NCBI RefSeq assembly: GCF_002929555.1
Contig: NZ_PJJP01000028.1
Coordinates: 1 to 64,000 of the forward strand
DNA: 64,000 nucleotides
Source of the DNA: Cryobacterium sp. N22
Lineage (GTDB): Bacteria; Actinomycetota; Actinomycetes; Actinomycetales; Microbacteriaceae
Reading direction: 5' to 3'
Shown here: positions 20,911 to 61,686 of the stretch, one piece after another
How positions within the stretch are numbered: the first letter of the stretch is position 1
Layout: every line of letters begins with the position of its first letter
Made by a program: the position numbers and the translations under genes
Notes under the pieces: generated by a model
What the model saw: the letters and a program-made list of their open reading frames with translations, nothing else
The model's database searches: none
Told to the model about the DNA's origin: nothing

Positions 20911-21096
20911 ATGTCCGGCAAGTATGAATTGACTGCAGACCGATCCGGTGGCTATGTCTTCAAGCTCAAGACCCACAGCGGTGAAGTGCTGATGACCTCC
21001 GAGAGCTACCAGACCAAGGCAGCCGCGCTCAAGGGCATCGAAGTCGTCAAGGCAGATGCCAAGGGCCGCGTCGTCGATCTCACCGAACCCAAGTAG
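20911..21096 (+). CDS. YegP-family (DUF1508) small protein
   Basis: 61 residues forming one DUF1508 unit: 'KYELTADRSGGYVFKLKTHSGEV' (split: KYELTADRSGG, YVFKLKTHSGEV) followed by 'SESYQTKAAALKGIEVVK'. Members are small alpha/beta proteins of unknown role; most have one or two such units and this has one. An AGAGAG site precedes the ATG. Confidence 0.85.
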   Translation: MSGKYELTADRSGGYVFKLKTHSGEVLMTSESYQTKAAALKGIEVVKADAKGRVVDLTEPK

Positions 21097-21101
21097 CAGC
21101 C

Positions 21102-21986
21102 TTACAGGTCTGCGTCGGCCGCGGCGAACGTGTCGCAGGCCTCCGCCCCGTTCGTGTAGCCCGTCTGGAACCACCTCTGGCGCATCTCGCTGGAGCCGTG
21201 GGTCCAGGACTCCGGGTTCACCTGGCCCTGGGTCTTCTCCTGAATGCGGTCGTCGCCGATGGCGGACGCCGCGTTGAGCGCATCCGCGATCTGGGCGTCG
21301 GTGATCGGGTCCAGCAGGGGCGTGCCGTCGGCATCCGTGGTCTCGGCCGCTGAGCCGAGCCAGGCGCCCGCGAAGCAGTCGGCCTGCACCTCGACGCGTA
21401 CGGCGTCGGAGGTGGGACCGGTCTGCGAGGTGTCTGCGGTGGCGAACGTGCCGGCCAGGTTCTGGATGTGGTGGCCCCACTCGTGTCCCACCACGTATAG
21501 CTGGGAAAGCGGGCCTGCCGTGGCGTCGAACTGGGTGCGCAGCGTGTCGTAGAACGCGGTGTCCAGGTAGATCAGCTGGTCGGCCGGGCAGTAGAACGGT
21601 CCCACCGCGCTGGTGGCCGCGCCGCAGCCGGTGTCGACCCCATCGACGAACAGTTGGATGTTGGGTGTGACATAGGGGATGCCCAGGGCCGGCGCCTGCT
21701 CGACCCAGTAGTCCTCCAGCGAGTCGCGGGTGAGGCCCACCCGGCACTCCACGTCGTCGTCGGCGTCCGCACCGGTGTAGCAGCCGGTGAGGGCGGTGGT
21801 TTCGCCCTCGCCAGTGCCCCCGGCCGTGCCGCCGCCGAGTAGGCCGGACAGGTCGACGCCGAGCAGCTGGGAGAGCAGCACGATGGCCACGAGGCCCAGG
21901 CCTCCGCCACCGACGGCGAGGCCGGTGCGGCGGCCGGATTTGCGCACTCCTTTGCCGGAGTACTTGGCGTCGTCGTTGAAAGTCAT
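21102..21986 (-). CDS. Neutral zinc metallopeptidase (YpfJ-like)
   Basis: 294 residues. One membrane helix near the N-terminus ('GLAVGGGGLGLVAIVLLSQL') is followed by a Gly/Thr-rich linker and a zinc peptidase-like domain with 'VGHEWGHHIQ'. His168, Glu169 and His172 form the HExxH zincin motif. Downstream 'EVQADCFAGAWLG' supplies the likely third ligand Glu, as in this family. It is probably anchored with its catalytic domain outside the cell. The substrate is unknown. Confidence 0.88.
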   Translation of the reverse strand: MTFNDDAKYSGKGVRKSGRRTGLAVGGGGLGLVAIVLLSQLLGVDLSGLLGGGTAGGTGEGETTALTGCYTGADADDDVECRVGLTRDSLEDYWVEQAPALGIPYVTPNIQLFVDGVDTGCGAATSAVGPFYCPADQLIYLDTAFYDTLRTQFDATAGPLSQLYVVGHEWGHHIQNLAGTFATADTSQTGPTSDAVRVEVQADCFAGAWLGSAAETTDADGTPLLDPITDAQIADALNAASAIGDDRIQEKTQGQVNPESWTHGSSEMRQRWFQTGYTNGAEACDTFAAADADL

Positions 21987-54973: not shown

Positions 54974-55134
54974 ACCCTTATGGTCACACGCGGTTCGACA
55001 TGCATCGATAACCAATTCGGACTCGTCCCGCGTGAATGGGCAGTGGTCGACGGAGCTTTGACTAGGTAGTCAGCGCCGACGCCTCTTATCGAGCGGAACC
55101 ATGCCCCGAGGCTCGGCGTTCGACACGGCCGGCC

Positions 55135-55178
55135 GTCTCGTATCCCATGGGATATGAGCCACTTCGGTTTCGAGACAC
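55135..55178 (+). repeat. 44-bp recombination-like site, copy S1
   Basis: The site has a 12-bp left arm GTCTCGTATCCC, core AT and right arm GGGATATGAGCC, forming a 26-bp palindrome. A further half-site ending GGTTTCGAGACAC follows at fixed distance. Six related copies are found to 60.9 kb. S1 lies in the 339-bp gap before a lipoprotein gene; nothing else is seen in that gap. Confidence 0.8.
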
Positions 55179-55312
55179 ATTGCGTGCGGATCAAGCCAAC
55201 CTTCCCGACACACAGACAGTCAGGGGCGTGCCTACGCCCCGCGCAATCGGTAGAGTCGGGCGTGCACGGGGGTCGTGCGGGGCGCCGTGTCGGGCGCCGG
55301 ATATGGGGGATC

Positions 55313-56068
55313 ATGCGTCGTTCGAAATCAGCCCTGGTCAGATCAGTGGCCTGCCTGCTCGGGGTGGCCCTCGCGCTAACGGCGTGCACCGCCTCGCCGC
55401 CGGATGCCGGTGGGACCGAGAGCGCCGAGAGCGTGAACACGGCGGACTGGCCCGCCGTTGAGCTCAACGGCGTCGGTCCGGTCGAGAAAATGATCGACGT
55501 GCCAGACGGCGCAGCGTCGTTCCGGGTGAGCTTTGTCTGCGTGAGCGGCAATTTCAGCCTCTCTTTCAGCGGGGCCACGCAGAATGACCGCCGCGGCGGC
55601 TGCCAAGGCACCCGTACCTACCTGTTTCCGGCGCCCGAATCCACGCTGATGCAGCTGTACATCTCCGTGCCAGCCGACTCGCAGTTCGCGTTGACGGGCG
55701 AGTTCACCACTGACGTCTTCAGCCCCGATCCGCTCATCACCGACGCGTGCACGCAGCTGTCGGAGTACATGAGTGTCTATCTCAACGCCGACCAGGGCTA
55801 CCTACAGGGCGACGTGAGCGCAGAGGAGTGGCGCGTGCAGATGGACGAGGCCGCGGGCATCATCACAGAAATGCAGGACACGGCCACCGGGCTCATCGCC
55901 CTGCAGCTGCCCGCGCTGGTGGAGGGGATGTCCTCGCCCGTCGTCGTGCCCGGCTACTTCCACGAGCAGCACTCACCGACCGAGATGGATGCGGCGGGCA
56001 CGATCGTCGGGGACGTCTGCGGCGATAACGGCTCCGGGATTGTGATCATGGCCGCCTACGGCGGCTGA
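55313..56068 (+). CDS. Lipoprotein of unknown function
   Basis: 251 residues from ATG 55313, with a GGGGGA site just upstream. The signal peptide ends in lipobox 'LALTAC'. The mature part contains 'FRVSFVCVSGNFSLSFSGAT', which has a Cys, and a later helical stretch 'EYMSVYLNADQGYLQGDVSA'. The frame continues upstream through S1 but that part is unlikely to be translated. It is followed 26 bp later by a second lipoprotein gene. No family is recognised. Confidence 0.7.
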   Translation: MRRSKSALVRSVACLLGVALALTACTASPPDAGGTESAESVNTADWPAVELNGVGPVEKMIDVPDGAASFRVSFVCVSGNFSLSFSGATQNDRRGGCQGTRTYLFPAPESTLMQLYISVPADSQFALTGEFTTDVFSPDPLITDACTQLSEYMSVYLNADQGYLQGDVSAEEWRVQMDEAAGIITEMQDTATGLIALQLPALVEGMSSPVVVPGYFHEQHSPTEMDAAGTIVGDVCGDNGSGIVIMAAYGG

Positions 56069-56094
56069 CCCACCTACGCACGCAGAAAGCCAAT

Positions 56095-56553
56095 ATGTAC
56101 CGGAGTCTCTTATTCACCGCGTTGGTGATCGCGTCCCTGTCTAGCTGCGCGGCAGCGCCACCTGTCTCGTCCCCAGAGACAACCGAGTTCGCGGAAACGT
56201 CAAGCCCTCTGCCCGCTGCGGACCCCGCGGAAACAGCATGCGTTTCGCTCAGCGAGCCGGCATCTCTGGGCTACAACGCCTGGAACGACTTTCATAAGGG
56301 AACAATCGACCTCCAAACGAGCATCGAGCATTTGAACCGCGCCACTGAGCTTTTCAGAGCGATTGAGGCTCCGCCGGGAAGCATCGCTATCGCTGTATCG
56401 AATGTGATGACATATATCGATGCTGCTGTCCCGGGACCCGAAGGACAGCCATACGACACCGGCACAAGTGAGTACTTCAACCTCACCTCCGCAATGGCAG
56501 CAGCCTGCTCCGCCACGGGACACGAACTGATCGTGAGAGCACACGGCGGTTAG
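56095..56553 (+). CDS. Lipoprotein of unknown function
   Basis: 152 residues. Short signal peptide ending in 'SLSSC', with a Pro/Ser/Thr-rich linker. The mature domain is helical ('IDLQTSIEHLNRATELFRAI') with two Cys ('ACVSLSEP', 'AACSATGHE'). It may form one operon with the lipoprotein 26 bp upstream. No family is recognised. Confidence 0.65.
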   Translation: MYRSLLFTALVIASLSSCAAAPPVSSPETTEFAETSSPLPAADPAETACVSLSEPASLGYNAWNDFHKGTIDLQTSIEHLNRATELFRAIEAPPGSIAIAVSNVMTYIDAAVPGPEGQPYDTGTSEYFNLTSAMAAACSATGHELIVRAHGG

Positions 56554-56768
56554 TAACCGGTGCCCGGGGTCCGAGCAGAAGAGGCAAGGGACCGCGCAAA
56601 TCGTGAAGGCGACGAGATCAAGCATTTCGAGTCCAGAAAGCGATAGTTTCGTCGCATTGAGTGCTTCTCGATGAGAGAACACCATGGGCGTCACCAGTAT
56701 GTTGGCATCGCGCCGTTCTGAGGATGCTTACAAAATGAGGGGTTCGATGCTTCGACGAGGATCCAGGC

Positions 56769-57140
56769 GTGACTGACTGCGAAATCAAGAAGCGCAGGCG
56801 ACTCCTTGACGGACCCGATGGTGTGCGGGCGGGCGCAGCGCTTACAGGAGGGGGCTTCGTCGCAGTTGCCCTCTGGCCGTACATCTTGACATTTCCGAGT
56901 TCTGAAGATGTCTACTCGCAGTGCATTGGGCTCACAGCCGGTCACCTCACACACATCAACCGGTCGACCTTCCCCACACAGATCTTCTGCGAGACCGAGG
57001 ACAACCTATTCGCAGGCGCTCTCTACCCTTTTTGGGCATCTGTGGGAATGAGCTCCGTGCTCGCACTCCTGGTCTTCGCCGGGTTCTACGGCGTGTGGAT
57101 GATGGCGCGCCGCGATGGACGCTTAGACGACAGGACGTGA
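56769..57140 (+). CDS. Small two-helix membrane protein
   Basis: 123 residues from GTG 56769. Two hydrophobic segments ('AALTGGGFVAVALWPYILTF' and 'WASVGMSSVLALLVFAGFYG') enclose a loop with two Cys ('SQCIGLT', 'FCETEDN'), which would lie outside the membrane and may pair. The tail is basic. No family is recognised. Confidence 0.55.
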   Translation: MTDCEIKKRRRLLDGPDGVRAGAALTGGGFVAVALWPYILTFPSSEDVYSQCIGLTAGHLTHINRSTFPTQIFCETEDNLFAGALYPFWASVGMSSVLALLVFAGFYGVWMMARRDGRLDDRT

Positions 57141-57206
57141 GACGGCCGATCGCGAGGCAGTCGAAAGCGTGAGCGTCGAGGCGCACAATCGCGACCATCG
57201 AAAACT

Positions 57207-57250
57207 GTCTCGAAACCCTACCGATACGAGACAGATGAGGATGCGAGACA
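57207..57250 (+). repeat. 44-bp site, diverged copy S7
   Basis: It has GTCTCG and CGAGAC arms 26 bp apart and a further GCGAGACA half-site at the usual distance (one base longer). The central sequence differs (AAACCCTACCGATA), so the copy is degenerate. It is 84 bp before S2. Confidence 0.5.
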
Positions 57251-57290
57251 AATCAGGTAGCCGCTCGTCCTGTGACAGGTGATCCCTTAG

Positions 57291-57334
57291 GTCTCATATC
57301 CCATGGGTTTCGACACGCTGAGGTTACGAGACAC
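57291..57334 (+). repeat. 44-bp site, copy S2
   Basis: GTCTCATATCCC, core AT, GGGTTTCGACAC, followed by GAGGTTACGAGACAC. It has the same length and spacing as S1. It is 26 bp before the start of the small gene at 57360. Confidence 0.8.
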
Positions 57335-57359
57335 GCCCGACTGACAGGGGCGCTTCGCT

Positions 57360-57656
57360 ATGCGACAAGATATGGGAATGGATCGCGCGTCAAACCACCT
57401 AATCGCAGCGCTTGAGGAGCCATCGGGCACGCGCACTCGACTCCTACTTCGTCGGGCGTGGGCGATGGTTCGCGCAGCACTGGGTGACGTCGAGGTCGAT
57501 GCCGACCTTGTCATCCGCCGGCGCGCGGGCGGGGCCGAGGTTCTACGCACTGCCGCTGACGTCGGCGACCCCCACGTCCTCTTGGACACCGTGCGCCGCG
57601 ACCTCGAAACCAAGACCGTTGAGGAGTTCGTACGCGAATGGCGCGTTCTCGACTGA
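57360..57656 (+). CDS. Hypothetical small protein
   Basis: 98 residues, charged and mainly helical ('NHLIAALEEPSGTRTRLLLR', 'LLDTVRRDLETKTVEEFVRE'). No membrane segment. ATG 57360 is the first start; two more in-frame Met codons lie within the first seven residues. It is the only gene between sites S2 and S3. No family is recognised. Confidence 0.5.
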   Translation: MRQDMGMDRASNHLIAALEEPSGTRTRLLLRRAWAMVRAALGDVEVDADLVIRRRAGGAEVLRTAADVGDPHVLLDTVRRDLETKTVEEFVREWRVLD

Positions 57657-57753
57657 GGCTCCGCACGCTGGGCGTCGGGCCACACCTCACGTGGTAGCTC
57701 TCCGGATCGGCCGCATCAGTGCAGCTTCTGCGATTTTTAAGATCGATCTCACT

Positions 57754-57797
57754 GTCTTGTATCCCATGGGTTTCGAGGCAGTTCGGTCATGGGACAA
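57754..57797 (+). repeat. 44-bp site, copy S3
   Basis: GTCTTGTATCCC, core AT, GGGTTTCGAGGC, then a weaker second half-site (CGGTCATGGGACAA). It is in the same orientation as S1 and S2. It lies 52 bp past the 3' end of a minus-strand lipoprotein gene. Confidence 0.75.
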
Positions 57798-57849
57798 CAG
57801 CGCGCTGCAAGAAATCTCGCTTTGTAACCGATTGGCAAGCGCCGGCGCG

Positions 57850-58347
57850 CTACTCAGGGGTGTCGAAGTCTTCTACATTTACCAGCACAAGGAATGTCGG
57901 CGCATTCGAGTCGCACTCATCGAAACCCGTTAACCGCGCAGGATCTGGGAACTCGTCGATTACCTCGCGATCAATGAGGTACCCCCTACTCTCAGTCAGT
58001 TTTTCGCCGAGAGCGACGGTCCCATGCACGCTACTGACAGAAGCTTCGTCGGGCAGATACTGGTAACCGAGCGGCCAAATTATCGGGTAAACCGCACCGT
58101 CTGACAGCTCCAGGGCTACGCAGCCATCTACCGCCGCGACCGTGCCAGCAACATCCTTGTACTCGTACTCTCCAGGAACGCTGCCAGTAATGATGCGCGC
58201 ATCACTGACCGTTGTGGGGCTAGCGTCCGTGACGGTGGCCGAATCGCTATCCGTTGACTCCACGCATCCCGAAAGCAGAATCGTGGTCGCCAGCAACATC
58301 CCGGCTCCCCAACGCTCAGACACCCTCATCCCGTCACGGTTGAACAC
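57850..58347 (-). CDS. Lipoprotein of unknown function
   Basis: 165 residues. GTG 58347 is chosen because GGAGG lies eight bases upstream; ATG 58329 is a later option. The lipobox is 'ILLSGC'. The mature part has 'EYEYKDVAGTVAAVDGCVAL' and 'YPIIWPLGYQYLPDEASVSS', which suggest a small beta domain. It lies between sites S3 (same strand as +) and S4 (reverse), with S4 just 20 bp upstream of its start. No family is recognised. Confidence 0.65.
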   Translation of the reverse strand: MFNRDGMRVSERWGAGMLLATTILLSGCVESTDSDSATVTDASPTTVSDARIITGSVPGEYEYKDVAGTVAAVDGCVALELSDGAVYPIIWPLGYQYLPDEASVSSVHGTVALGEKLTESRGYLIDREVIDEFPDPARLTGFDECDSNAPTFLVLVNVEDFDTPE

Positions 58348-58366
58348 TGAGCCACCTCCGCTGCGC

Positions 58367-58410
58367 ATGGTCCTGAACCTAACAGGCTCGCAACCCATGG
58401 GATATGAGGC
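58367..58410 (-). repeat. 44-bp site, copy S4 (inverted)
   Basis: On the minus strand it reads GCCTCATATCCC, core AT, GGGTTGCGAGCC, then TAGGTTCAGGACCAT. It has the same length as the other copies but opposite orientation. With S3 it forms an inverted pair around one lipoprotein gene. Confidence 0.75.
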
Positions 58411-58478
58411 GTAAGAGAACAACAACACAGTCGTCACCAGTGAACTGGTGACCGGCGCAGGGATGCTGCCCGGTTCAC

Positions 58479-58931
58479 TCAACGCTCTGCGCGTGACGGA
58501 GGTGAGACGATGATTATGATCCCGTTTCCGCAGGTCTTGGGGATCGGTATGGACACCGTCGCGCCTTCCACGGGACTCCCTCCGCCGAGGGAGATCTCGT
58601 CGCCCATCCGATACTCCTCGCCTGCAAATGTGAGTGTCGTGCCGTCCCAAGTCGTGAGCTTGTCGGGAAATGCCGGAATGTCGCCATCGTCAAACCGGAC
58701 GCAGTTGTCGACGAATGCCAGTGTCCCGACTTTCAACCCGGCCATGCCCACCCAGTCCTCTGGAAGGGGGTACGTGACGAGCCCAGTCGGCTCTGGCGGC
58801 GTGGGCTCCGTCACGGTGCAGGCCGTAAGAAGCGGCGCGAGGACCAGGATCAGACCGACCAGCGCCCGGCGCTCACGCTTGCGTACCGACCGCAGCGTCG
58901 ATGCGGACTCAGGAACGACAATCAATGACAT
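58479..58931 (-). CDS. Lipoprotein of unknown function
   Basis: 150 residues from ATG 58931 with GGAGGTCGC in front. The signal peptide ends in 'PLLTAC', followed by a Pro/Thr linker. The mature part has 'GLVTYPLPEDWVGMAGLKVG' and 'WDGTTLTFAGEEYRMGDEIS', and the tail has one Cys ('KTCGNG'). It resembles its neighbour 57850-58347 in size and plan (a small beta domain after a lipobox) but with no clear sequence identity. It lies between S4 and S5. Confidence 0.65.
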   Translation of the reverse strand: MSLIVVPESASTLRSVRKRERRALVGLILVLAPLLTACTVTEPTPPEPTGLVTYPLPEDWVGMAGLKVGTLAFVDNCVRFDDGDIPAFPDKLTTWDGTTLTFAGEEYRMGDEISLGGGSPVEGATVSIPIPKTCGNGIIIIVSPPSRAER

Positions 58932-59105
58932 GCGACCTCCGTCAACGCTGAGAAGTGCGAGCACCGTCACCCTAGCTGGCATGCGCGCAACCGGTCAGCG
59001 TGTAGCACGCGCTGGCTCACGCCCGGCCGGTCGCGTTGGAGAGATAGATCTGCCGCACGGGCCATCTGGTAGGTCACCTACAGGTGGCCAAAGAGCCAAT
59101 CCCTG

Positions 59106-59149
59106 GTCTCATATCCCATGGGATATGAGCCACATAGGTTATGAAGCAC
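59106..59149 (+). repeat. 44-bp site, copy S5
   Basis: GTCTCATATCCC, core AT, GGGATATGAGCC, then ATAGGTTATGAAGCAC. The first 28 bp differ from S1 at only one position. It is 112 bp before a lipoprotein gene on the same strand. Confidence 0.8.
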
Positions 59150-59260
59150 TTGCGAATCTGTGCGACCGGCTCAGGTCAGCGGACCAGGTCTCCTGTTCCA
59201 GCGAGCAAGGGGGCCTCTCCGCGGTATCCCCGGGGCGGTTCGCCATGTCATTCTCAAGTT

Positions 59261-59689
59261 ATGCGATCTTCACGAGTTGTGCCCGCTACCCTTTCGATGC
59301 TGGTCGTTGCGTTCCTGATGACCGGGTGCACTGTGGGCCCATTCGAGGAGGAATCTAGCGCCGGCCTGAAGGTCACAGCGGAGCAGATAACTTACTTCGA
59401 CGGCTACTGCGGGGTTGGAGTGAAGATCGAGAACGGGAGTGACCGCACAGTAGAGTTCGTCGAAGACGACGTTGAGGTGTTCGAGGGATCAAGCTCGATC
59501 GAATGGAATCTCCCGTTCACCGATGTCAAGCCGGGGGAATCGGTTCGTGGGTATGTTGTCGAGGAGTTTTCGACCATGATCGTTCAGGGAGCCGTAGCAA
59601 CTCACGCCTTTGTCGTGAATTGCGACGACAATCCCTACACGATAACGGTTAACTCGGTCAACGCCGGCTCCGTGAGCTTCGATTTCTGA
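59261..59689 (+). CDS. Lipoprotein of unknown function
   Basis: 142 residues from ATG 59261. The lipobox is 'AFLMTGC'. The mature domain is beta-rich ('GVGVKIENGSDRTVEFVEDD', 'EWNLPFTDVKPGESVRGYVV'), like small FxLYD or DUF4352-type extracytoplasmic beta-sandwich domains. Two Cys ('GYCGVG', 'VNCDDN') may pair. The frame is open upstream to 59141 but the signal peptide fixes the start here. Confidence 0.65.
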   Translation: MRSSRVVPATLSMLVVAFLMTGCTVGPFEEESSAGLKVTAEQITYFDGYCGVGVKIENGSDRTVEFVEDDVEVFEGSSSIEWNLPFTDVKPGESVRGYVVEEFSTMIVQGAVATHAFVVNCDDNPYTITVNSVNAGSVSFDF

Positions 59690-60015
59690 CTTCCGTCCAG
59701 CGTGCGCTCGAAAGGAAAACCTCCCCAACCGTCTCGAATAAGAAGGTAGCGGAGAAGTTGGGCTGATCGATCTGAGCAACGGCGAAATGCCGGATGGTGA
59801 TCAGCGACCGCGGCACAACCGGGCCCGGGCCGACGTGCGGTTGTTGCACGCCGGCCAGGGGACAGGTATCAGACTCGAACCTGTGCGTTGTACCACTCGA
59901 ACGGGCAGCTGTTCATCGAGGTTTGGCTCGGTGTTGTGCTGCGCAGCGGCAGCGTATTGGTGGGGCGTCGGCCGGCGGCCAACCACAAGCGAGAACGACG
60001 AAAAGGGAACGACAC
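59690..60015. other. Intergenic gap, no clear feature
   Basis: 326 bp. It holds one GTCTCGAATA sequence (59731-59740) that matches a lone arm of the 44-bp sites, without a partner arm. No convincing gene, tRNA or terminator is seen. Confidence 0.4.
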
Positions 60016-60627
60016 ATGTCTGAGATTGAGGATCTGCTCGCCAACGTCCGCGAGCAACAACCCGTCAAGCTACGCCGTGGGAGTCGTGTGGCACTGCTGA
60101 TCGCCGCGGGAGGGCTGAGTGTGGCTTTTGCGGCCGCGGCAGTGTGGGGAGTCTCCGCCACGGCGAGCATCATCTCCGCATTCGGGCTCGACAATCCATC
60201 CCCAACGGCGTCGGCAGAAACGACTACAGCTGTGGCAGAAACCCCACTTACCAGCTCTGCTGCCCCCGGTCCCAGCCCGGTCGCGGCCGCCACGATCGCG
60301 GAACCGCCGATCTATGACGCATCCACTGACATTGCCACGATCCCACGCCCCCCGGCGGATTGGTCAGCGGACCAGCTCGCCAATGCCGAGATCTTGCTCA
60401 CCCAGTCGGCGATCATTGGGGATTGCATGCTGGAAAAAGGGTACGAGTACCACTTCACGCCGTCCTGGCTGGGCTCAACCCCTTGGAAGTTTGCCGACCT
60501 CGCTCCCAGCGAGGCGCTGGCCCTATGGGGGCCGACGGACCGGGGGCTCGGCGACGACTATGACTGGCGGGACGCTGGCTGTCAAGGGTATGCCGTGCAC
60601 GTAACCGGCATGGATGACGCACACTGA
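60016..60627 (+). CDS. Membrane-anchored protein of unknown function
   Basis: 203 residues. A short cytosolic start ('MSEIEDLLANVREQQPVKLR') is followed by a single membrane helix ('VALLIAAGGLSVAFAAAAVW'), a Ser/Ala/Pro/Thr-rich linker and an outer domain with two Cys in 'GDCMLEKGYEYHF' and 'DAGCQGY'. Such a plan is common in actinobacterial anti-sigma-like or envelope proteins, but no anti-sigma zinc motif is present. GGGAAC precedes ATG 60016. Confidence 0.65.
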   Translation: MSEIEDLLANVREQQPVKLRRGSRVALLIAAGGLSVAFAAAAVWGVSATASIISAFGLDNPSPTASAETTTAVAETPLTSSAAPGPSPVAAATIAEPPIYDASTDIATIPRPPADWSADQLANAEILLTQSAIIGDCMLEKGYEYHFTPSWLGSTPWKFADLAPSEALALWGPTDRGLGDDYDWRDAGCQGYAVHVTGMDDAH

Positions 60628-60683
60628 ACAACGCAAAAAAAAGAATGCTTGGTCGTCCCGACTAGTACAAGAGGAGGACCGCT

Positions 60684-61001
60684 GTGGAACACGAAAGAAC
60701 TGGATTTCTCCATCGGACCCCAATCCGTCGTTCATTCAACCGGTTGGCACTACCGAACTCATTCAAGAACAGAATCGCGAAGCCGATGGTGCAAGCAGAC
60801 GGCTTCGCCACCGAACAATCGCCGGGCCGTCGATTCCCGCAAGGTCCGCCCGATGAAGATGCCCGCGCGCTTGAATCGTACGCGACACGGTACGTGTCTC
60901 GTATCCCTAGGGATACAAGACGTCTCACGGCCGTGACCGGCACTTTCCCAAATCTCCGGCAATCTCACGAGCTAAGCGAGTCTCACAACTACGTCGCATA
61001 A
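60684..61001 (+). CDS. Possible small protein reading through site S6
   Basis: 105 residues from a GTG with a perfect GAGGAGG site seven bases upstream. The product is basic and low in hydrophobic residues, and the frame runs across the S6 palindrome, which argues against a conserved protein. The good ribosome site is the only real support. If not coding, this 429-bp gap before the recombinase gene holds S6 and further half-sites. Confidence 0.3.
   Translation: MEHERTGFLHRTPIRRSFNRLALPNSFKNRIAKPMVQADGFATEQSPGRRFPQGPPDEDARALESYATRYVSRIPRDTRRLTAVTGTFPNLRQSHELSESHNYVA
60896..60939 (+). repeat. 44-bp site, copy S6, upstream of recombinase
   Basis: GTCTCGTATCCC, core TA, GGGATACAAGAC: the most symmetric palindrome of the set, with a TA core where others have AT. 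The second half-site is poor, but additional GTCTCAC/GAGAC half-sites follow at 60922-60930, 60963-60971, 60980-60986 and 61033-61042. It resembles a multi-subsite res-like region before a recombinase gene. Confidence 0.75.
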
Positions 61002-61056
61002 CCTTTTGCTTGAAGTACAGTGCGCATCGTTAGTTATGAGACGACGAAGGAGCATC

Positions 61057-61686
61057 GTGATTAAGCTCATCGGCTATGCGCGGGTATCGAGTCGACAACT
61101 GCCCACCGACGGGCAGCGGGCCGAGATTTTGGCTGCTGGCGTCCGGCGCGACGACCTCTATGTCGATCAAGGGAGCTCCGGCGCTCGAGCGTCCCGGCCT
61201 CAGCTTGATCTCGCACTCACTGCGCTTGAGCCTGGCGACACGTTCGTGATCGCGTCTTTAGATCGGCTGGGCCAATCGACGCAGAACGTGCTCGCGTTCG
61301 CCGAGGACCTAAATGGCCGCGGTGTTGAGCTTCGCGTCCTCAATCTGGGCGGCGGAGATGTCGACACCGCGACACAGACGGGATCCATGCTGTTCACAGT
61401 TATGGCTGCTCTCGGGCAGATGGAACACGAAATCAAGCGCGAGCGCGTGCTCGACTCGATCGATAGACGCCGCAACGCCGGCAAGAACCTTGGTGGCCGA
61501 CCACGAAGAATCACCAACAGACAAATACGCAGCGCCAACCGACTCATCGAGGACGGAGAACCAACGGCAGAGGTCGTGCGCGACTTCGGGATGTCCCGCG
61601 CCACGTTCTACCGCCGGGCGCGCGCCCTGGGATTGATGCCAGATCAATCCAATGACGAGACCGCGAAAAGCGACGGTGCCAGCTGA
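61057..61686 (+). CDS. Small serine recombinase (resolvase/invertase family)
   Basis: 209 residues. The catalytic domain begins 'IKLIGYARVSSRQ', with Ser11 at the nucleophile position and Arg9 matching Arg8 of gamma-delta resolvase. 'ASLDRLGQST' carries the first arginine (Arg70), but the second (Arg71 of gamma-delta) is Gln73. 'GQMEHEIKRERV' is the dimer helix. A C-terminal HTH ('PTAEVVRDFGMSRATFYRRA') binds DNA. GTG 61057 has AAGGAG four bases upstream; ATG 61036 is a longer option. S6 and further half-sites lie upstream, so it probably controls its own gene and acts at S1-S6. Confidence 0.88.
   Translation: MIKLIGYARVSSRQLPTDGQRAEILAAGVRRDDLYVDQGSSGARASRPQLDLALTALEPGDTFVIASLDRLGQSTQNVLAFAEDLNGRGVELRVLNLGGGDVDTATQTGSMLFTVMAALGQMEHEIKRERVLDSIDRRRNAGKNLGGRPRRITNRQIRSANRLIEDGEPTAEVVRDFGMSRATFYRRARALGLMPDQSNDETAKSDGAS

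Follow-up and report, generated by a model that had tools for sequence, protein, structure and literature searches.

A putative chromosomal cassette array with two classes of recombination-type sites beside a small serine recombinase gene in Cryobacterium sp. N22

Seven copies of a composite repeat are scattered among small genes ahead of a serine recombinase gene in a 64,000-nucleotide stretch of Cryobacterium sp. N22 (contig NZ_PJJP01000028.1, positions 1 to 64,000; hereafter the window). What do these sites delimit, and what part does the recombinase play at them? A sequence-only reading of the window had suggested a cassette array moved by a serine recombinase, with a regulon as the alternative. 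We consider it very likely that the locus holds a sedentary cassette array on the chromosome, operated by a small serine recombinase of the resolvase/invertase type, with two lanes of exchange distinguished by the central dinucleotide of the sites. On comparison among genomes, the cassettes start and stop at the centres of 26-bp sites, and sites with an AT centre swap flanks with other AT sites. Sites with a TA centre (T sites in the array and R sites at the recombinase gene) likewise swap flanks mutually. The array location is constant and its content varies between species. Borders at the core centre, different cassette neighbours in different species and co-occurrence with the recombinase support the suggestion that a serine recombinase moves a cassette array.

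Repeat sites and their two classes

The 11-base core TATCCCATGGG has seven strand matches at five places in the window, compared with 0.43 expected and a maximum of two in 100 shuffles, confirming that the repeated composite sites are real. The core consensus consists of two inverted 12-bp half-sites (GTCTCGTATCCC twice) flanking a 2-bp centre, which together form a 26-bp palindrome. The features of the array are listed below with their window coordinates and strands; ORF denotes an open reading frame.

55134-55177 (+): S1, AT-class site with third half-site, the recombinase-distal site of the array as seen here; 2 mismatches in the core, 0 in the third half-site
55148-57303 (+): segment S1-S2, with two lipoprotein-like ORFs (55313-56068 and 56095-56553) and a membrane-protein-like ORF (56769-57140)
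57206-57250 (+): S7, the T site, with its TA centre at 57219/57220 and its third half-site at 57239-57250
57220-57303 (+): 84-bp connector, from the TA centre to the AT centre of S2
57290-57333 (+): S2, AT-class site
57304-57766 (+): 463-bp cassette with ORF 57360-57656
57753-57796 (+): S3, AT-class site
57767-58397 (-): 631-bp cassette with lipoprotein-like ORF 57850-58329 (-)
58368-58411 (-): S4, AT-class site, inverted, with weak third half-site
58398-59118 (-): 721-bp cassette with lipoprotein-like ORF 58479-58982 (-)
59105-59148 (+): S5, AT-class site; 1 mismatch in the core, 2 in the third half-site
59119-60908 (+): recombinase-proximal segment, containing a lipoprotein-like ORF (59255-59689) and ORF 60016-60627
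60895-60922 (+): S6, the R site, core centre TA; homology among recombinase loci stops here
60979-61042 (+): accessory half-sites (60979-61003 and 61029-61042) belonging to the res-like region, conserved upstream of homologues
61057-61686 (+): small serine recombinase, 209 amino acids, Resolvase and HTH_7 domains

S1 to S5 share the 12+2+12 core with an AT centre, as had been described from the sequence. AT sites also carry a third half-site, GGTTWYGAGACA, in direct orientation, which begins 32 bp from the core start. The fixed spacing claimed for this additional half-site holds for S1, S2, S3 and S5 (0-2 mismatches in 12) and only poorly for S4 (5 mismatches in 12, reverse strand). S4 points the opposite way to the other sites, and the cassette between S3 and S4 carries right-type ends on both sides. 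The inverted S4 suggests that exchange is not restricted to directly repeated sites in one molecule, a restriction that is a trait of resolvase and res.

S6 and S7, previously taken as variants of S1 to S5, are real sites and form a separate class with centre TA. In T sites, the third half-site lies one base farther away than in AT sites and an AT site comes next. An AT site was found within 200 bp of 27 of 53 TA rows, at 73-93 bp in 25 of these 27; S7 lies 84 bp upstream of S2. R sites are located upstream of a recombinase gene, and between the R core and the start codon stand two further clusters of conserved half-sites. The R core and these clusters have the layout of a res region, and S6, which ends 134 bp before the recombinase start, is by its sequence res-like, in line with the earlier remark that it precedes the recombinase gene. 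Seventeen recombinase starts were inspected, and the R core with conserved accessory half-sites was present at 14. The remaining three have a degenerate core (G053, contig C17), the accessory part without the core (G031) and a core without a conserved accessory part (G014); G, C and L numbers designate genomes, contigs and loci of our set. Another three of 20 positions were left out of this count, as they had been chosen for an R-like site and no start was established. The longer accessory cluster motif (at most 3 mismatches) occurs in 34 of the 57 genus genomes. Sequence and junctions together indicate crossover-type sites, with two inverted 12-bp half-sites around 2 bp.

The AT motif is also present in relatives. 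A total of 270 candidate site rows were collected, many of those with other centres being register-shifted readings, and 130 rows were kept as the AT set once overlaps and weak cores had been removed. The same genome carries a second, smaller array with AT, T and R sites on contig C33 (about 549-552 kb; L093). Beside it lies another recombinase gene of this type, matching only residues 1-154 of the window enzyme.

Junctions at AT sites

Junctions were compared in the window and in 40 further stretches from ten array genomes and five others, using the 100 bp that adjoin each site on either side. Among pairs of the 130 AT sites, only the left flank is shared in 46, only the right in 13 and both in 1. 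Flank identity switches inside CCCATGGG; in the pairs with at least 80% identity (14 left, 13 right), it drops within the central 8 bp to the level seen between randomly paired sites. When anchor points were instead placed at random in these stretches, 10 trials yielded no pair of this kind. BLAST match ends show the same preference, with 46 of 451 lying at most 15 bp from an AT centre (6.3 expected; maximum of 13 in 200 randomisations) and 12 of 451 at a TA centre only (2.5 expected; largest randomised value 7), the rest being elsewhere.

Repeats of 26-45 bp could serve as short substrates for ordinary homologous recombination, and dispersed repeats might be shuffled in this way or by replication slippage. 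This explanation appears very improbable, given that the switch points are confined to the central 8 bp and not spread along the repeat, that the site geometry is resolvase-like and that the sites track one recombinase group.

The window cassettes stand beside other neighbours in relatives. The 631-bp S3-S4 cassette is 96.4% identical in G007 and 94.3% in G039, each over exactly positions 1-631, and the 463-bp S2-S3 cassette is 92.7% identical in G024 over 463 of 463 positions. The 721-bp S4-S5 cassette matches at 93.6% over positions 25-721 in G023 and at 88% over 2-691 in G004. The S2 left flank is 82-83% common to two G007 sites (L095:3939 and L096:4710), where the right flank has 21-28% identity. 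Likewise, the S3 right flank is 95% common to G039 (left 31%), and the S4 right flank is 94% common to G007 (left 23%). The left neighbour sequence of S2 (112 of 133 aligned columns) directly abuts the right neighbour sequence of S3 (485 of 501) in G007, with controls at 226/439 and 75/145, indicating that the 463-bp cassette is present in the window and absent in G007. In the 2072-bp stretch from S1 to the T centre, only positions 1606-2072 (window 56753-57219) have a match, at 90%, on plasmid pLW097 and in other company. By these junctions, the 26-bp palindromes are cassette borders, and gene order between the sites is not fixed among the genomes compared.

The regulon alternative takes the palindromes as operators of one DNA-binding protein before small genes. 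The sites are indeed located between genes, and S6 stands in the region before the recombinase gene, where autoregulation is likely. Against this alternative, which we reject, stands the change of flanks at the site centre: the same genes do not stay attached to a site across relatives. It explains neither this switching and the resulting homology breaks, nor the exact-length cassettes, nor the succession of T site, connector and AT site. Moreover, the longest ORFs of the 91 ORF-bearing segments between AT sites point both ways, 53/91 against the site and 38/91 with it. We regard a regulon as extremely improbable. A repeat-caused assembly artefact deserves even less credence: some draft array contigs are short or end inside the array (G053 C35 and G055 C9), yet arrays are also found in the single-contig assemblies G007, G023, G024 and G031 and in the three-contig assembly G004.

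Exchange between R and T sites

The TA class comprises 82 sites, 60 T and 22 R. Only the left flank is shared in five R/T pairs and two T/T pairs, and the flanks then differ. Sharing of the left flank up to the centre in the five R/T pairs indicates that R and T sites exchange. The clearest case is the R site of the C33 array and a T site in G004, which are 98% identical over 144 bp up to the core and unrelated thereafter. Conversely, only the connector is shared, with differing left flanks, in 19 T pairs, three of which include the window T site. In its variable part, the window connector has 91-93% identity with three G007 connectors, each of which stands behind unrelated sequence. Homology among recombinase loci stops at the outer side of the R core.

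T sites have the orientation of their own R site in 49 of 49 cases, on nine stretches from six genomes and one plasmid. On contig C32 of G039, seven T sites go with one R site and two with another, and a third R site has no assigned T site. The orientation table omits G047, G053 and G055, and only its T and R orientations were used; its AT orientation was left unused because the AT core is palindromic and the first strand found was taken. The uniform T orientation is consistent with insertion of circles at R by TA exchange.

One gene fragment occurs twice in G007 (L095:11708 and L095:19246). One of the two copies is joined to a T half-site mid-core, with a poor left half-site, and may be a captured non-cassette end.

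Distribution and chromosomal location

The AT pattern was counted on both strands of the 57 genus genomes. The top ten have 57, 32, 32, 29, 22, 15, 14, 13, 12 and 9 hits, and the next has 7. These ten site-richest genomes are the same ten that encode a recombinase at least 82% identical to that of the window, the window genome included. The T motif (at most 3 mismatches) was found in 8 of the 57 genomes, all inside those ten. The sites are present near close homologues of the recombinase; absence of the motif near other homologues and a fixed gene order had both been named in the sequence-only reading as refuting it, and both comparisons came out in its favour. Among the 36 named loci retrieved with the recombinase, 30 are from Cryobacterium.

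Downstream of the array, orf213, argS and lysA are found in the window genome and likewise in each of the seven other array genomes whose flank was available (G004, G007, G023, G024, G031, G047 and G053). On the upstream side, dinB was found in the window genome, G023 and G047, and in part in G007. The array of exchangeable cassettes adjoins the recombinase gene and keeps a fixed position. Nine genus genomes from outside the array group were examined at argS; argS and orf213 are present there with no recombinase of at least 82% identity within the stretch. Three of these nine array-less loci contain 31-34% relatives (G038, G016 and G005), and that of G005 also a 67% fragment.

The anchor for these loci was argS; a DUF222/HNH-type gene had been tried first, proved multi-copy and was replaced. 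One such gene near the recombinase (L179:2638-4134), which we take to be of the DUF222/HNH type, recurs at another place in its own genome with 94% identity and is present many times in relatives.

The recombinase and points against its role

The enzyme contains a Resolvase catalytic domain (PF00239, 1.1e-30) and a C-terminal helix-turn-helix domain (PF02796, 4.1e-7). The closest solved chains are DNA-invertases by name (4m6f, E 1.9e-28, and 3uj3), both of which we presume to be Gin, followed by gamma-delta resolvase. The active-site serine and the first two arginines are present in the array enzymes. We take the active-site arginines to correspond to R8, R68 and R71 of Tn3 resolvase. PMC4499144 describes the R71 contact as "proposed".

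Several observations weigh against the cassette array as we read it, and the first concerns the enzyme. The third arginine of the LDRLGR motif is replaced by Q, K or M in all ten array recombinases. This replacement could mean altered or lost activity and is the main doubt on the enzyme. As regards the sites, seven candidate rows have centre AC, some of them being register shifts. For the segment S5-S6, just two matches were obtained elsewhere, both weak and some 150 bp long. In the TA class, the G004 T site of the clearest of the five R/T pairs has centre CA instead of TA, the R core is degenerate in another of these five pairs (G053 L112), and the R site in G007 (767.9 kb), also among the five, has no adjoining recombinase match. 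The left flank of the T site at L110:11821 matches L109 only until about 15 bp before the core. The array genomes are close kin, with argS 95-98% identical to that of the window, so the co-occurrence of sites and recombinase does not represent ten independent events. Two more genomes of this kin group fit less well: G002 has AT, T-like and R sites and no recombinase hit beyond 1.1e-21, and G011 has neither an AT-pattern hit nor a recombinase hit. Finally, dinB was not found in the examined upstream stretches of G004, G024 and G031.

The sites of G002 lie at the end of contig C7 (L229), where AT, T-like and R sites reach the contig end just after R, with short repeats behind R. The G002 recombinase would then sit in the gap before the argS contig. 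For the left flank of S6 in the window, a DNA search gave only three short weak matches in other genomes.

The state of the third arginine is also the starting point of another explanation, in which the sites are true recombination points, the neighbouring recombinase is inactive or a regulator, and plasmid-type resolvases of the same family that retain this arginine (LGR-type) act in trans. Q, K or M stands in all ten array enzymes, compared with R in the eight LGR-type relatives of the same alignment. G053 and G039 also encode an LGR-type enzyme, and pLW097 has one together with R, T and AT sites. Nevertheless, G023 and G024 have arrays with a single match each (E at most 1e-20), the array-type enzyme. 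In addition, the reading frame is open in 9 of the 10 array recombinases (the match in G023 crosses a TAG near the C-terminus), and the median ratio of nonsynonymous to synonymous substitution rates (dN/dS) among array recombinases is 0.168 over 45 pairs. We consider action in trans unlikely.

Plasmid relatives and origin

Among the 15 best records listed, plasmid enzymes with 68-75% identity come from Arthrobacter-type, Clavibacter, Kocuria, Sinomonas, Frondihabitans and Cryobacterium plasmids. The stretches inspected of a Pseudarthrobacter and a Clavibacter plasmid (8.6 kb each) have one R-like core upstream of the gene, with centres TT and AT. Judging from these relatives, the array recombinase probably descends from a resolvase that acted on a single res site of a plasmid.

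R, T and AT sites are found on plasmid pLW097 of Cryobacterium sp. LW097 (L176, 12.6-20.8 kb), together with a portion of one window cassette segment. Just past the last site listed for it, the plasmid has a gene annotated as aminoglycoside 6-adenylyltransferase (20923-21726).

Carriage by viruses was also considered and dropped. The exact T and AT patterns have no match in viral_contigs, and although 256 phage records contain a relative of the enzyme, none reaches 60% identity.

Cassette content

The segments between neighbouring AT sites have a median length of 920 bp. This set includes 93 AT-to-AT segments of less than 6 kb, of which 91 have an ORF, and 85 of the 93 neighbouring AT pairs are in the same orientation. 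Pfam was searched with 40 of 217 cassette ORFs, nine window ORFs and the recombinase. No match at E 0.001 was obtained for 21 of the 40 cassette ORFs, and none of the nine window ORFs scanned reached the Pfam cut-off. The 19 matched ORFs, three of which are under the curated cut-off, include acetyltransferases, hydrolases, dehydrogenases, an arginase, an LD-carboxypeptidase, MFS and LysE transporters, a tRNA synthetase, a DUF1016/YhcG-type protein and transposases. Beyond the lipoprotein genes noticed earlier, the cassettes carry genes of other kinds too.

A class I tRNA synthetase gene (W/Y type) forms a cassette in the G007 array (L095:11881-13095). It is possibly a spare inhibitor-tolerant copy, which is a guess. 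LD-carboxypeptidase (S66) genes were found in a G047 cassette (L107:13226-14254) and next to an AT site on pLW097 (L178:26408-27436).

Proposed mechanism

In the proposed mechanism, the recombinase would bind the 12-bp half-sites and cut with a 2-bp stagger at the centre. Only ends with the same central dinucleotide would be rejoined, which would give one enzyme two exchange lanes. Through AT by AT exchange, single cassettes could be excised, inserted, swapped or inverted. Through TA by TA exchange, T-bearing circles would enter at R beside the recombinase gene, an attI-like growth point. Orientation would come from the third half-site together with the additional half-sites that precede the gene. 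The TA sites (R and T) would in this way add cassettes near the recombinase gene in one orientation, and the AT sites would swap, drop or invert them. The 84-bp TA-to-AT connector could join a new gene end and so provide a route for making cassettes.

We lean towards regarding the system as a second, independent invention of the integron, in which a former plasmid resolvase came to capture cassettes on the chromosome through two orthogonal lanes, set by the central dinucleotide, and the 84-bp connector served as a movable adaptor. If this is true, cassette capture arose more than once, and a plasmid resolvase can turn into such a platform. The simple sites would allow direct tests of how an ordinary gene is made into a cassette, and a two-lane recombinase would be a useful tool.

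Comparison with known systems

In the open PubMed Central literature, as far as its text was available and with preprints outside the scope, no serine-recombinase cassette array was found; one may be described elsewhere. The resolvases of Actinobacteria plasmids are similar in having 68-75% identical enzymes and an R-like upstream site. They differ in having one core only, in the two 8.6-kb stretches inspected, and in keeping the third arginine; these plasmid relatives presumably resolve multimers.

DNA invertases with several sites, such as Gin/Hin and Min of p15B, act on dyad sites with a 2-bp centre. The array resembles them in its small serine recombinase and its dyad sites with a 2-bp centre. 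However, invertases flip a few fixed segments in one element, whereas the array has many unrelated cassettes that vary by species, one of them common to a plasmid.

The XerC and XerD enzymes of dif modules are tyrosine recombinases. In Acinetobacter, the pdif/dif sites are asymmetric and C and D modules alternate, according to PMC13141974, and there, as here, spacer identity matters. The modules are mainly described on plasmids, with chromosomal sites reported too (PMC12907356). Unlike dif modules, the array belongs to another enzyme class and has its own recombinase gene. Its half-sites resemble the R site of that serine recombinase.

Integrons are the textbook platform for capturing and storing gene cassettes, and they use one tyrosine recombinase family. 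Chromosomal integrons have IntI, attI and attC, and attC folds as a single strand. A true integron was rejected here, since IntI (TIGR02249) was over the cut-off in none of the ten array genomes; its sub-threshold matches also occur in 14 of 14 controls. The likeness to a chromosomal integron lies in the layout: a fixed chromosomal array of small, mostly unknown genes, with cassettes found across species in different order, and a terminal recombinase gene that reads away from the array and has a special site adjoining it. The differences lie in the parts, which here are a serine recombinase, palindromic 26-bp sites with a 2-bp centre, two classes of centre and ORFs pointing both ways.

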